From positions 124,001 through 188,000 of the forward strand of contig LNEP01000001.1 in NCBI GenBank assembly GCA_001464125.1: a stretch of DNA of 64,000 bases, written 5' to 3'. This document shows, piece by piece, positions 1,475 through 56,193 of this stretch. The position numbers and the translations under genes were made by a program. The stretch comes from Betaproteobacteria bacterium Ga0077540 (GTDB taxonomy: Bacteria > Pseudomonadota > Gammaproteobacteria > Burkholderiales > Methylophilaceae). Each line of letters begins with the position of its first letter. Positions within the stretch are counted from its first letter, which is position 1. The notes beneath the pieces are model-generated. The model did no database searches. It had not been told where the DNA came from and saw only the letters and a program-made list of their open reading frames with translations.

Positions 1475-1669
1475 CTATTCTGCTTCGTCTATCCAAGCAA
1501 GTTGAATGGCTTCTAAAATCTTTTCACCGCAGTGGGCTGGCAGGTCATCAAATCCCTCTAGTGCCAATGTCCACTCCATTAGATCAGTAAAGCGGATTGT
1601 TTTAGGATCTATATCGGGATGTTTGTCGTAAAGCGCTTCAGCTATACGCTGACTGTCGGTCCATTTCAT
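1475..1669 (-). CDS. iscX: IscX, Fe-S cluster assembly accessory protein
   Basis: A small acidic protein of 64 residues that matches IscX (YfhJ), which binds the cysteine desulfurase IscS and iron and tunes Fe-S cluster assembly. It opens with [20 protein letters not shown] and carries the family's RFTDL and LEGF segments and an acidic end (WIDEAE). Length is normal for the family. An AGGAAG Shine-Dalgarno lies about 4 bases before the ATG. IscX usually ends an isc-hsc-fdx operon; here it leads a unit with a DUF3307 gene and a sugar phosphomutase, and no isc genes are in the window. The sigma-54 promoter at 1834-1849 points towards it, but a terminator hairpin lies between. Confidence 0.9.
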
Positions 1670-1763: not shown

Positions 1764-1791
1764 AAAAAAATGCCCAACACGAATGTTGGGC
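1764..1791 (-). terminator. Rho-independent terminator, leftward
   Basis: A perfect 8-bp stem (GCCCAACA with TGTTGGGC, loop of four) at 1772-1791 is followed on the minus strand by seven T residues (1764-1770). On the plus strand there is no T run, so it works leftward. It sits between the sigma-54 promoter and iscX, so it either ends a small RNA or attenuates the iscX operon. Confidence 0.75.
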
Positions 1792-1822
1792 TAGGGGGAG
1801 CGATTTTGGAGATATGCGCTTG
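1764..1822 (-). ncRNA. Candidate sigma-54-dependent small RNA, about 58 nt
   Basis: No coding frame is evident here. A leftward sigma-54 promoter (1834-1849) predicts a transcript start near 1821-1822. An 8-bp hairpin followed by seven U residues would end it near 1764, giving an RNA of about 58 nt. The 5' half is unstructured and pyrimidine-rich, with CUCC and GCUCCCCCUAG, sequences able to pair with Shine-Dalgarno regions. An NtrC-like site lies upstream. The hairpin could instead be an attenuator in the leader of iscX. The elements are seen in the sequence; the RNA itself is inferred. Confidence 0.5.
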
Positions 1823-1833
1823 TTTAGTAATTA

Positions 1834-1849
1834 GCAAGAGGTGTGCCAA
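1834..1849 (-). promoter_or_regulatory. Sigma-54 (-24/-12) promoter, leftward
   Basis: The minus strand reads TTGGCAC, then ACCTC, then TTGCT. This has exact GG and GC elements with 10 bases between them and matches the sigma-54 consensus TGGCAC-N5-TTGC at every conserved position. The predicted start is about base 1821-1822. An AT-rich segment (1850-1875) lies directly upstream, followed by an NtrC-like palindrome. Confidence 0.7.
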
Positions 1850-1942
1850 TTAATTTAATTGATTAAATTCAATTGGTTAGGTTGGTTGATAGGATTTGGA
1901 TACGTTTTTACGTGGTTGTAGCAACATCCAATCTGGGTCAGA

Positions 1943-1959
1943 TGAACCAAAATGGTGCA
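1943..1959. promoter_or_regulatory. NtrC-like enhancer site
   Basis: The sequence TGAACCAAAATGGTGCA matches the palindromic NtrC target TGCACCAAAATGGTGCA at 16 of 17 positions. Its centre is about 128 bases upstream of the predicted leftward sigma-54 start, a normal enhancer distance. It also lies about 100 bases upstream of glyA, so an effect on that gene is possible. Confidence 0.55.
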
Positions 1960-2057: not shown

Positions 2058-3305
2058 ATGTTTAGCACTTCTCGCAATTTAAAAATCGCAGATCCTTCGT
2101 TGGCCAAGATGATTGAAGACGAAGTCGTCCGTCAAGATCAGCATATTGAGCTGATTGCCTCTGAAAACTACACCAGCCCAGCGGTGATGGAAGCACAGGG
2201 CTCTCAATTGACTAATAAATATGCAGAAGGCTATCCAGGCAAACGTTTTTACGGTGGTTGTGAGTTTGTAGATCAGGTGGAACAGTTAGCCATTGATCGT
2301 CTAAAGCAACTTTATGGCGCGGAATACGCCAACGTGCAACCACACTCTGGTTCTCAAGCAAACCAAGCCGTGTATTTCTCAATTTTAAAACCAGGCGATA
2401 CAGTGATGGGCATGAACTTAGGTCATGGCGGCCATTTGACGCACGGCTCTCCTGCCAATCTTTCGGGCAAGTTATTTAATATTGTGGCGTATGGCCTCAA
2501 TGATAAAGAAGAAATTGACTACGATGAGATGGAGCGTATTGCCATAGAAGCGAAACCAAAGCTGTTGATTGGTGGTGCGTCAGCCTATGCGTTGCGTTTT
2601 GATTGGGAACGCATGGCTGCGATTGCTAAAAAAGTTGGCGCTTATTTCATGGTAGACATGGCGCACTATTCAGGTTTGATTGCAGCGGGGGTGTATCCTA
2701 ACCCAGTGCCGCATGCTGACTTTGTGACTTCTACTACGCACAAAACGTTGCGTGGCCCACGCGGCGGCATTATTTTGGCCAAAGCTGAATATGAAAAAAT
2801 GCTGAACTCGAATGTATTCCCAAGCTTACAAGGTGGTCCTTTGATGCACGTCATTGCGGGTAAAGCGACAGCTTTCTTGGAAGCGCAGCAGCCTGAGTTT
2901 AAAGCCTATCAAGCGCAAGTGCTTAAAAATGCGGACACCATGGCTAAAACATTGGCTGCACGTGGGTTGCGTATTATTTCTGGCCGCACTGAGTCGCATG
3001 TGTTCTTGGTGGATTTACGCCCGAAAGGCTTAACCGGAAAAGCAGCGGATGCTTACTTGGGTCAAGCGCATATTACGGTAAACAAGAATGCAATTCCAAA
3101 TGACCCAGAAAGCCCATTCGTGACTTCTGGTATCCGTATCGGTTCGCCGGCCATTACTACCCGTGGTTTTAAAGAAGCTGAGGCAGAGCAAGTGGCGCAC
3201 TTGATTGCAGATGTATTGGATAATCCAACTTCTGAGGCAGTGATTGCTGTAGTAAAAGCGAAAGTACATGCGTTAACTAGCCGTTTTCCGGTATACGGAG
3301 CTTAA
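2058..3305 (+). CDS. glyA: Serine hydroxymethyltransferase
   Basis: PLP enzyme that interconverts serine and glycine while moving a one-carbon unit between serine and tetrahydrofolate; in methylotrophs it also serves one-carbon assimilation and biosynthesis. The 415-residue length is typical. Visible motifs are [10 protein letters not shown], the [11 protein letters not shown] cofactor-site segment, GGHLTHG, and the PLP lysine in [14 protein letters not shown] (Lys229). The frame ends 3 bases before the TTG start of nrdR, a spacing that suggests co-transcription. The upstream region contains a sigma-70-like promoter and an NtrC-like site that may act on the opposite strand. Confidence 0.98.
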
Positions 3306-31396: not shown

Positions 31397-32986
31397 ATGC
31401 CATCCAATTTTTATCGCCTCGCTAGCTATGGTATTTTTGCTGTACTAGGTTTGTTCACTTTGCTGACGTTTAAGCACTATGGCATCAGTAATGATGAGGA
31501 AGTGCAACATGTGTACGGGCGACTGCTCTTGGATTTTTACCAATCCGGTTTTCAAGATCAATCCGCTTTTCACTATAAAAACCTGTATCTGTATGGCGGT
31601 TTGTTTGATGTGATTGCTGCGTTGTTGGAAAGGGCTAATCTGCTTTGGGTATGGGATATGCGGCATTTACTCTCTGCAATGTTTGGTCTTTTGGGCTTAC
31701 TCGGTGTTTATAAGATCGCTTTAACTCTTGGTTCAGAGAGAACCGGTTTAATTGCCTTATTGGTATTGGCGCTTACCGCTGCTTGGACCGGGGCAATGTT
31801 TACCCACACCAAGGATATTCCTTTTGCCACTTGTATGACTTGGGCACTGTATTACACCATTCTGGTTTGTAAGGCGGCGCCTGCGGTACCCATGCACATC
31901 AGTATCAAACTTGGTTTGGCGGTGGGTTGTGCGTTGGGGCTGCGTATTGGTGGTGGGTTTGCGGTGGTCTATCTTGTGTTGTCGCTGATAGTGAGCAGCG
32001 TGGTGATGGCAAATGGCATGTCGGCGCGACTGCATTATTTGCTTGTAAGTAGCTGGCGTCTAGTGCCTGCAGCGTTGATTGCTTTTATGGTGATGGCTAT
32101 TTTCTGGCCTTGGGGGGTAATGTCTCCCAGCCACCCGGCAGAGGCAGTGAAAGCCTTTTCTAACTTTTCATTTAATATGTTGACGATAGACAATGGCTTG
32201 GTGACTTCAATCGGTGAGGTGCCTAGAACTTATCTGTTGCATTATTTATTGGTGCGCTTGCCAGAAATCTGTTTGTTGGGCCTGCTCAGTTTAGGTCTCG
32301 TCGTTGTCCTCAATTTAGGTAAGTACAAGCAATGTTTAGCATCAAAGGAATCACGAGTTTATATTCCATTGCTGGTGGCAATCCTATTCCCTTTAGCGTT
32401 TGTACTCGCCGATAAGCCAGCTTTGTATAATGGGGTCAGGCATTTTACGTTTGTATTGCCTCCACTTGCCGTGTTAGCGGCACTTGGCATAGACCAAGCT
32501 TGGATTGCGCTACAGTCGTCAAAACGCATACTCGCAGCTTATGGTGGGTTATGCCTGATATTGGCGCTAACCACGCTGGTGGAGTTGGTGCAATTACACC
32601 CTTACCAATATATTTTTTATAATCATTTGGCGGGTGATACTGCAAAAGCAGAAAAGCAGTGGGAGAGTGATTATTGGTCAAGTAGTCTGCGTGAAGCATC
32701 TAAAGCGTTGATGGCATTAGCGTTGCCAACGCGCCAGTCGCCCTATTTAGTGGCTGTTTGCGCAGAAAATGTGCAAGGCAGTGCTTATCTGGATCATCGT
32801 TTTCAGGTGACTAAAGATTGGGTAGCGGCAGAGTTCTACATGTCATCCACCAATATGAACTGTGATCAAGTGTTGCAAGGTGAGGTGGTTGCAGAAGTGA
32901 AACGATTAGATACAGTATTAGCCGTGGTGAAAGATAGAAGAAACTTAGTAGGGGAGGCGCATAATGCAACACCAGCACCCAGATAA
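31397..32986 (+). CDS. GT39-like polytopic glycosyltransferase
   Basis: A 529-residue protein with about a dozen membrane helices and a periplasmic N-terminal loop carrying acidic residues (GISNDEEVQHVYGRLL), the pattern of PMT/ArnT-like (GT39/GT83) enzymes that use polyprenyl-phosphate sugars. It starts a rightward operon; the next gene (GT2) overlaps its 3' end by 23 bases. Together they fit a system in which a polyprenyl-phosphate sugar made by the GT2 is flipped and passed to an envelope acceptor. The acceptor is unknown; the upstream 282 bases hold no clear promoter. Confidence 0.8.
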   Translation: MPSNFYRLASYGIFAVLGLFTLLTFKHYGISNDEEVQHVYGRLLLDFYQSGFQDQSAFHYKNLYLYGGLFDVIAALLERANLLWVWDMRHLLSAMFGLLGLLGVYKIALTLGSERTGLIALLVLALTAAWTGAMFTHTKDIPFATCMTWALYYTILVCKAAPAVPMHISIKLGLAVGCALGLRIGGGFAVVYLVLSLIVSSVVMANGMSARLHYLLVSSWRLVPAALIAFMVMAIFWPWGVMSPSHPAEAVKAFSNFSFNMLTIDNGLVTSIGEVPRTYLLHYLLVRLPEICLLGLLSLGLVVVLNLGKYKQCLASKESRVYIPLLVAILFPLAFVLADKPALYNGVRHFTFVLPPLAVLAALGIDQAWIALQSSKRILAAYGGLCLILALTTLVELVQLHPYQYIFYNHLAGDTAKAEKQWESDYWSSSLREASKALMALALPTRQSPYLVAVCAENVQGSAYLDHRFQVTKDWVAAEFYMSSTNMNCDQVLQGEVVAEVKRLDTVLAVVKDRRNLVGEAHNATPAPR

Positions 32987-54828: not shown

Positions 54829-54845
54829 TGCACAAATTTTGTGCA
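54829..54845. promoter_or_regulatory. NtrC enhancer site 1 of amtB
   Basis: TGCACAAATTTTGTGCA is a perfect 8-1-8 palindrome that fits TGCAC-N7-GTGCA, the NtrC target. Its centre is about 116 bases before the predicted sigma-54 start. Confidence 0.75.
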
Positions 54846-54863
54846 ATGCACTGTGCATTGCAC
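54841..54863. repeat. Perfect 11-1-11 palindrome between the NtrC sites
   Basis: GTGCAATGCAC and its complement GTGCATTGCAC flank a single T. It overlaps both NtrC-like sites by 5 bases each and has TGCAC/GTGCA half-sites at several phases, so it may extend the enhancer or bind a second regulator. Confidence 0.6.
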
Positions 54864-54875
54864 ATTCGTAGTGCG
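54859..54875. promoter_or_regulatory. NtrC enhancer site 2 of amtB
   Basis: TGCACATTCGTAGTGCG matches TGCAC-N7-GTGCA at 9 of 10 conserved positions. It begins exactly 30 bases after site 1 (about three helical turns), like the paired NtrC sites of E. coli glnA. Confidence 0.65.
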
Positions 54876-54925
54876 GTATATTTGCATCTATTTTATTTTT
54901 CCTATAATAATCAACGCACTAACTT

Positions 54926-54942
54926 TTGGCGCGCAATTTGCT
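54926..54942 (+). promoter_or_regulatory. Sigma-54 promoter of amtB
   Basis: TTGGCGCGCAATTTGCT has GG (54928-54929) and GC (54940-54941) with 10 bases between and differs from the consensus TGGCAC-N5-TTGC by one base. The predicted start is near 54953, about 38 bases before the amtB ATG. Confidence 0.8.
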
Positions 54943-54990: not shown

Positions 54991-56193
54991 ATGGATGGCT
55001 TAATTTCGGCCAATGATGTCTTGTTTGTATTATTAGGTGCCATCATGGTGCTAGCAATGCATGCAGGGTTTGCATTTTTAGAAGTGGGGACAGTACGCAG
55101 TAAAAACCAAGTAAACGCTTTGGTGAAAATCATGGTGGATTTTTCTATCTCCACCATCGCCTATTTTTTCATTGGGTATAGCATCGCTTATGGCATCAGT
55201 TTTTATAGTGGTGCGGAAGTACTTGCAGCAAAAAATGGTTACGATTTAGTAAAGTTTTTCTTTTTGCTGACGTTTGCAGCAGCCATACCGGCCATTATCT
55301 CGGGTGGTATTGCTGAGCGCGCTAAATTCAATCCACAAATGGCAGCTACCTTTTTAGTGGTGGGCTTTGTCTATCCATTTTTCGAAGGCATTGCATGGAA
55401 CGGACATTTAGGTATTCAAGATTGGTTACTTGCCACCTTTGGTGCTAAGTTTAGAGACTTTGCAGGCTCTGTGGTAGTGCATGCCATGGGGGGATGGATC
55501 GCGCTTACTGCAGTGATACTGTTGGGTGCGCGAAATGGCCGCTACAGCAAAGAGGGAAAACTCCACGCCTACCCACCCTCAAATATTCCATTTTTGGCAC
55601 TAGGTGCTTGGATTTTGACCGTAGGCTGGTTTGGCTTTAATGTCATGTCTGCACAAGCGGTGCAGGGTATATCGGGATTGGTTGCAGTCAACTCATTGAT
55701 GGCGCTTGTTGGCGGTACTTTAGCGGCGCTGGTATTAGGTAAAAATGACCCTGGTTTTGTCCACAACGGCCCCCTGGCTGGTTTGGTGGCAGTGTGCGCA
55801 GGCTCAGACATTATGCATCCGCTGGGTGCTTTAACCACAGGTTTGGTGGCAGGAGCATTGTTTGTATGGGCGTTTACTCTGACTCAAAACCGCTTAAAAA
55901 TTGATGATGTCTTAGGCGTATGGCCATTACATGGTTTATGTGGTGCATGGGGTGGTATTGCTGCTGGTATTTTTGGCGCAAAATCCTTAGGTGGCACAGG
56001 TGGCGGTGAAGCGGGCGTGAGTTTGATGTCACAGCTGGTGGGAACTGGGTTGGGGATCGTGGTTGCCTTAGTAGGTGGATTTGTTGTCTACGGTGTATTA
56101 AAGGCAGTGGTGGGTATCCGCATGGATGCAGAAGCTGAATTTGATGGCGCTGACTTGAGTATCCATAAAATTCCGGCACGCTCAGAAGATTAA
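54991..56193 (+). CDS. amtB: Ammonium transporter AmtB
   Basis: A 400-residue Amt channel with 11 membrane helices. Start at 54991, preceded by AAGGAG; an upstream ATG at 54973 lacks one. The twin pore histidines are in VVVHAMGGWIAL and WPLHGLCGAWGG, and IPFLALGAWILTVGWFGFN covers part of the pore region. The cytoplasmic C-terminus (IRMDAEAEFDGADLSIH) is the GlnK-binding type. There is no glnK beside it, unusual but not rare. The control region carries two NtrC sites and a sigma-54 promoter, so expression should follow nitrogen limitation. Confidence 0.95.
   Translation: MDGLISANDVLFVLLGAIMVLAMHAGFAFLEVGTVRSKNQVNALVKIMVDFSISTIAYFFIGYSIAYGISFYSGAEVLAAKNGYDLVKFFFLLTFAAAIPAIISGGIAERAKFNPQMAATFLVVGFVYPFFEGIAWNGHLGIQDWLLATFGAKFRDFAGSVVVHAMGGWIALTAVILLGARNGRYSKEGKLHAYPPSNIPFLALGAWILTVGWFGFNVMSAQAVQGISGLVAVNSLMALVGGTLAALVLGKNDPGFVHNGPLAGLVAVCAGSDIMHPLGALTTGLVAGALFVWAFTLTQNRLKIDDVLGVWPLHGLCGAWGGIAAGIFGAKSLGGTGGGEAGVSLMSQLVGTGLGIVVALVGGFVVYGVLKAVVGIRMDAEAEFDGADLSIHKIPARSED

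Follow-up and report, generated by a model that had tools for sequence, protein, structure and literature searches.

A candidate sigma-54-dependent, NtrC-linked small RNA with an anti-Shine-Dalgarno-like core beside glyA in the Methylophilaceae

The interval between glyA and iscX in Betaproteobacteria bacterium Ga0077540, a member of the Methylophilaceae, carries on its minus strand an NtrC-like site, a sigma-54 promoter, a predicted small RNA and a terminator, in that order. It lies in a stretch of 64,000 nucleotides (nt) of contig LNEP01000001.1 (assembly GCA_001464125.1, positions 124,001 to 188,000 of the forward strand), hereafter referred to as the window, to which all coordinates given without a contig label belong. 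The glyA gene (2058..3305, plus strand), recognised by its Pfam match (PF00464), is the divergent neighbour of the RNA, and iscX (PF04384; 1475..1669, minus strand) is the downstream neighbour, judged to lie outside the transcript unit of the RNA. The putative NtrC-like enhancer site TGCACCATTTTGGTTCA (1943..1959, minus strand) has its centre about 103 nt before the -24 element. The original prediction, made from the DNA alone, had counted 16 of 17 letters of this palindrome as matching; the NtrC-like site is indeed there, but that figure holds only when five free positions are counted, and the site has one mismatch in its 12 specified positions. The sigma-54 promoter TGGCAC-ACCTC-TTGC (-24/-12; 1834..1848, minus strand) is an exact match to the consensus, as had been predicted, and the transcription start is placed at 1821..1823 of the same strand, 11-13 nt past the GC of the -12 element, on what we take to be the usual sigma-54 spacing.

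The small RNA itself (about 58-59 nt; 1764..1822, minus strand) is predicted from its fold, its conservation and a covariance model, designated R1, which scores 71.9 bits at this position, the genome having one strong copy. The 59-nt RNA has a folding energy of -15.2 kcal/mol (z -3.98 against 200 shuffles). In the predicted folds it begins with a weak hairpin of 4 base pairs (bp) (hairpin 1; 1799..1820), whose stem joins AGCG (1820-1817) to CGCT (1802-1799) and whose loop presents an anti-Shine-Dalgarno-like core, AUCUCCAAAA (1804..1813), with an invariant UCUCC that is unpaired in the folds and is the likely pairing seed. Behind it are a C-rich linker, CCCCCUA (1792..1798), predicted to be single-stranded and a possible second contact, and an intrinsic terminator (1764..1791) called from an 8-bp stem (1791-1772) and a tail with seven T, all on the minus strand; the hairpin with seven T was correctly described in the original prediction. 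The two stretches that had been proposed to be unpaired, CUCC and GCUCCCCCUAG, are borne out in part: the first CUCC does lie in the loop of hairpin 1, but the GCU of the second is paired in the AGCG/CGCU stem, so that the free linker is CCCCCUA. No family reached its cut-off in an Rfam scan of the window.

A sigma-54 pattern with at most one mismatch occurs eight times in the window, where a mean of 9.7 would be expected by chance, and the site at 1834-1848 is the sole exact one. Since such matches are no more frequent than chance, the promoter alone proves little and the case rests on comparison. BLAST searches of 61 related genomes matched 22, of which 21 are among the 22 genomes of the same genus. 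The RNA core was found in 20 of the 22 own-genus genomes, and in the 21st (G015) a diverged copy, which retains the promoter, the terminator and AUUCUCC, is oriented divergently to glyA at a distance of about 220 nt. The last genome (G006) is an assembly of 430 contigs in which the only glyA match is 63% identical and lies at a contig end; therefore, the RNA locus is probably absent from that assembly. An exact 18-base pattern, searched in named genomes, gave 26 records, including Methylophilus methylotrophus, M. aquaticus, several Methylophilus sp. and Methylotenera mobilis 13; the matches in unrelated groups were attributed to chance without being inspected. In the alignment of the genus, changes on both sides are seen in three of seven terminator pairs compared and in none of the four pairs of hairpin 1. 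Two promoter-like matches without the RNA (L020 and L022) were left out of the counts.

Only the RNA, without the promoter, went into model R1, and the promoter at R1 loci is therefore an independent test. R1 matched 124 of 187 genomes of the family at E <=0.01, many of them weakly; matches weaker than about 1e-5 were not checked individually and include terminators of methanol dehydrogenase (MDH) genes (L078, L079). Both MDH genes of the Ga0077540 genome end in the same CACCCCACTTCGGTGGGGTG terminator, the source of these weak matches (from 1501 in both loci). Fifty loci, 20 from the genus and the best 30 from outside it, were examined, and a sigma-54 promoter with at least 8 of 10 consensus positions stands 19-24 nt before UCUCC in 48 of them (20/20 in the genus, 28/30 outside). 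The 28 promoter-bearing loci outside the genus belong to genera g7 (18 loci; the genus of Methylotenera mobilis 13), g46 (nine) and g10 (one); of the two misses, L070 keeps the RNA without a recognisable promoter and L104 is a chance terminator. UCUCC is invariant across 40 aligned sequences (alignment A3), and in the predicted folds of 45 single sequences it is wholly unpaired in 38, only its first U being paired in the other seven. Several first hairpins stay paired despite changes in their letters, for example as AGCA/UGCU in L089 and L102. The register of promoter, core and terminator kept in 48 of 50 loci means that chance is excluded by conservation and not by single-sequence statistics. 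A second model, R2, comprising promoter and core, was run on 399 genomes of the order and gave no full-length match outside the genus, such matches being found only in the three own-genus genomes sampled. Among its weaker matches, 11 and then 15 more were read; most are promoters of other genes, the exceptions being diverged RNAs in four genomes (G031, G105, G202 and G023) and a second RNA in G008, which are described below.

A link to nitrogen control was examined in a genome scan covering 2.32 of 2.33 Mb. Among 200 sigma-54-like sites, of which 169 fall within called genes and 31 are intergenic, an NtrC-like site with a single mismatch was found in the preceding 200 nt only for the small RNA and glnA, and these two NtrC-like sites are identical in 16 of 17 letters. 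The next-best sites belong to an ammonium transporter in the window and to a NasT-like response regulator gene, the latter named by eye. The transporter gene (54829-54941 and 54991-56193, plus strand) matches PF00909 and falls below the NCBIfam TIGR00836 cut-off; the region includes a sigma-54-like site, TGGCGCGCAATTTGC at 54927, and, at 54829, an NtrC-like TGCACAAATTTTGTGCA. The genes glnA, ntrB and ntrC are clustered at C12:313891-318601, each above its NCBIfam cut-off, and sigma-54 (rpoN, on C6) and Hfq (on C3) pass those of Pfam; the features of a sigma-54/NtrC regulon, namely a -24/-12 promoter, an upstream palindrome, and ntrC and rpoN in the genome, are thereby present. NtrC-like sites were surveyed at 47 loci with enough upstream sequence (19 in the genus, L018 being excluded as too short upstream, and 28 outside). 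The best site has at most two mismatches in 21 of the 47 and at most three in 32, levels which mononucleotide shuffles reach in 0.1% and 2.6%, respectively; all 19 own-genus loci have a site with at most three mismatches, and 15 one with at most two. The conserved promoter, spacing, core and terminator, the likeness of the NtrC-like site to that of glnA, and the fact that the genome also encodes ntrB, ntrC, rpoN and hfq support the original proposal of a small RNA that depends on sigma-54 and has an NtrC-like site.

We consider it probable that the locus encodes a trans-acting, NtrC/sigma-54-dependent RNA of about 58 nt which acts at ribosome-binding sites, and this is the best explanation of the data. 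When nitrogen is limiting, NtrC would activate the sigma-54 promoter, giving a primary transcript of about 58 nt that would be stopped by its own terminator. The RNA would expose the anti-Shine-Dalgarno-like AUCUCCAAAA in its hairpin loop, followed by the C-rich linker, and, probably with Hfq, would pair with ribosome-binding sites of messenger RNAs (mRNAs) reading U(U)UGGAGAU; such pairing would lower the translation of the targeted mRNAs. AUCUCCAAAA is complementary to UUUUGGAGAU, and an intrinsic terminator with a U tail together with Hfq in the genome are features of Hfq-dependent small RNAs. We infer that ribosome-binding sites are where pairing takes place; xoxF-type methanol dehydrogenases, gap, guaB and a porin are speculative predictions of single targets.

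Pairing of the 13-nt loop with 2193 gene starts of the Ga0077540 genome ranked gap first (-14.3 kcal/mol), followed at -13.2 kcal/mol by the MDH paralogue C12:36399, guaB and an adaptor-like lipoprotein gene (C6:136225); the porin C12:319467 came eighth by energy and the other MDH (C12:251418) 14th. The ranking is not independent support, because every gene mentioned had previously been seen to carry TTGGAGAT. Both MDH proteins pass the NCBIfam cut-off as pyrroloquinoline quinone-dependent methanol/ethanol dehydrogenases and are presumably of the xoxF type. The ribosome-binding site of MDH is TTGGAGAT in 12 of 12 resolved loci from RNA-bearing genomes, and both MDH loci of G006 carry it; in genera without a strong RNA match it occurs in one of 13 (G028), with A-T-GGAGA in 11 and TTTGGAGAC in one. 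The MDH starts of L322, L339 and L340 were not resolved. The loop pairs with the MDH leaders of G022 and G106 at -8.8 and -9.6 kcal/mol, respectively, the codons after ATG in these two leaders being partly guessed, as against -11.6 and -13.2 kcal/mol for the MDH genes of the Ga0077540 genome. A TTAACCCTTAGTA-like block is common to MDH leaders across genera with and without the RNA (L311-L327) and may be a separate control element. When starts with TTTGGAGAT were compared with those with TAAGGAGAT by genus, the RNA-bearing genera gave 1.77 (g1), 1.98 (g46) and 1.09 (g7), and nine others 0.11-0.80. For the ribosome-binding site near 32950, suggested as a target in the original prediction, the computed pairing energy is -18.4 kcal/mol when the long part of the RNA is used but only -7.0 kcal/mol for the loop.

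Several of the results weigh against this interpretation. Outside the genus, NtrC-like sites have at most two mismatches in only 6 of 28 loci and at most three in 13; because the mismatch counts differ by group (15/19 within the genus at the stricter level), NtrC control is strongly suggested by the sites in the genus and uncertain beyond it. In a ranking by duplexes with the longer RNA, which yields long GC-rich pairings, MDH is not among the best 45, and guaB is the sole gene with TTGGAGAT there. At gene starts TTGGAGAT is only mildly over-represented (13 seen, 6.4 expected), and its enrichment over the genome-wide count is below that of AAGGAGAT or TAGGAGAT. The comparison of TTTGGAGAT with TAAGGAGAT is not a clean contrast, since g9 (1.75) and g16 (1.20) have high values without a strong RNA match, and the contrast in MDH ribosome-binding sites may reflect common inheritance of one or two changes.

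The Ga0077540 genome (G000) has a second, similarly built RNA directly behind glgA (C1:392886-393000, equivalent to L207:12886-13000, minus strand). This RNA consists of a sigma-54-like TGGCAT-N5-ATGC, a AAGCUUCUCCAAAGCU hairpin, a ACUUCUCCUCCCUC linker and a terminator, and was found by BLAST in 23 of 41 genomes searched, these being 21 of the 22 own-genus genomes together with G022 and G024; its sequence was read in three of them (G000, G008 and G012). The genome scan for NtrC-like sites upstream of sigma-54-like sites listed no good one for this RNA. G031, G105 and G202 have diverged sigma-54 RNAs with AUCUCCUCCUCC or a similar motif, and G023 has a short form. The RNAs in the first three of these genomes (L344, L346 and L356, from 1501) are longer, the sigma-54 promoter being followed by about 60 extra bases, UUAUCUCCUCC and a terminator. 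In G253, from another family of the order (L364 from 1501, minus strand), a sigma-54-like site, GGCACUAUCUCCAGUAUGCUGCC and a possible hairpin were observed; because the AAGGAG-ATG of a gene follows, this element is taken as a leader rather than a small RNA. A broader proposal, which we advance only tentatively and regard as rather doubtful, is that Methylophilaceae brake methanol oxidation and growth genes in nitrogen starvation via two sigma-54-dependent mini-RNAs that mimic anti-Shine-Dalgarno sequences. The NtrC-driven one beside glyA would pair with UUUGGAGAU sites of xoxF-type MDH, gap and guaB, the glgA one with CUUCUCCUCCCUC would cover an overlapping set, and genera without the first form would have retuned either the RNA (AUCUCCUCCUCC in G031, G105 and G202) or the MDH site (UAUGGAGA).

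The gene order around the RNA bears on the alternative named in the original prediction, an iscX leader or attenuator in which the promoter would drive iscX and the hairpin would govern read-through. iscX does follow on the same strand in the window and in 32 of the 50 loci, glyA being divergent upstream in 43. However, 13 of the 20 loci from the genus lack it downstream of the RNA, and there the longest downstream open reading frame is instead convergent and ends 11-106 nt from the RNA (in L053, the only one scanned, its protein is of the AsmA family), and in four loci of g7 (L076, L092, L095 and L098) neither glyA nor iscX adjoins the RNA. Because iscX is not always downstream on the same strand, the synteny contradicts this alternative, which we reject as very improbable; moreover, a TATAAT-like box was seen by eye before iscX, though scanning for sigma-70 promoters gave none in this region. 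Slightly less probable still is that the element is to be read on the plus strand or is a mere terminator with a chance promoter: the plus strand carries GGAGATATG in this genome, but its ATG is not kept in the relatives displayed, and the orientation of the sigma-54 promoter and the T run indicate the minus strand in 48 loci. By comparison of sequences, the promoter, the RNA, its terminator, their conservation and the independence from iscX can be regarded as demonstrated.

Control of the sigma-54 RNA by an enhancer-binding protein other than NtrC, at least outside the genus, would accord with the 15 of 28 outside loci that have no NtrC-like site with up to three mismatches, and with the lack, in the genome scan, of a good site for the glgA RNA; the own-genus site, its spacing and its likeness to the glnA site speak otherwise, and we consider this reading unlikely. 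Somewhat less likely again is that the RNA titrates a protein, Hfq or another, instead of pairing with ribosome-binding sites. U tails bind Hfq, and the RNA is short with a long U tail, but its most conserved part is UCUCC, complementary to GGAGA; titration of the CsrA type, for which GGA is the motif, is unlikely because the RNA has no GGA.

The proposed trans-acting RNA resembles several known small RNAs in part. NrsZ of Pseudomonas is the product of a small RNA gene under sigma-54 and a nitrogen regulator, and this control is the point of likeness; by its general description NrsZ differs in sequence and length, and no Rfam match at the gathering score links the window RNA to it. Candidates among Rfam families were also considered. 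For SdsR/RyeB (RF00111) membership was rejected, the scores being 19.2 bits in the window and 29.5 in L064 against a cut-off of 38. The family RF02278 is, in the available part of its description, a Betaproteobacteria toxic small RNA (S17S, bdhR1; PMC11722255). The likeness to it is one of design only (a length of about 62 nt, with UCUCC close to the 5' end, a single small hairpin and then the terminator), and its core is instead UCUCCUCCACC; membership was rejected at 15.4 bits in the window and at most 24.8 in ten related loci (24.8, 21.3 and 20.2 in three of them) against a cut-off of 50. Of 41 genomes searched, 6 have an RF02278 match above this cut-off, and the 25 Methylophilaceae in the set are not among these six. 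In G052 (L307, about 1501-1564, minus strand) a weak RF02278 match of 33.5 bits was observed with a sigma-54-like TTGGCACAACCCGTGC directly upstream.

Comparisons with the following RNAs are limited to the accessible portions of the cited papers. GlnZ of the Enterobacteriaceae offers a parallel in lowering an enzyme of carbon metabolism, SucA, under nitrogen limitation (PMC9731577); it is, however, cut by RNase E from the 3' untranslated region of glnA and pairs far upstream (PMC9731577), whereas the present RNA is preceded by a promoter of its own and carries a seed of anti-Shine-Dalgarno-like sequence. NfeR1/alpha-r14 of rhizobia shares an unpaired anti-Shine-Dalgarno motif and a link to NtrC and nitrogen stress, but has three hairpins each with CCUCCUCCC and a promoter described without a sigma-54 signature, and is repressed by NtrC (PMC10746234). 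With two hairpins, AUCUCCAAAA and CCCCC, the small RNA falls outside the three-hairpin definition of alpha-r14, and its wiring would be opposite to that reported in these portions for NfeR1. NcS25 of Burkholderia is also a betaproteobacterial small RNA, pairing with a porin Shine-Dalgarno sequence, and differs in being 84 nt long, with no upstream sigma-54 motif and no change on nitrogen depletion in the text available (PMC10117139).

The present RNA is best described as a family of small RNAs, probably controlled by sigma-54 and NtrC, that carry an anti-Shine-Dalgarno-like sequence. No described small RNA in Methylophilaceae was found in the open-licence literature, which does not imply absence from print. 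The gene is tiny, with one strong copy in the genome tested, and is also present in the cultured Methylophilus methylotrophus and Methylotenera mobilis 13. If the interpretation is true, the route would differ from that of GlnZ, a processed 3' untranslated region, and the wiring would be the reverse of the NtrC-repressed NfeR1, as far as the available parts of their descriptions go. In the Methylophilaceae, which are important consumers of methanol and also serve as industrial hosts, the output of NtrC would then include an RNA aimed at ribosome-binding sites, tying nitrogen status to one-carbon oxidation.
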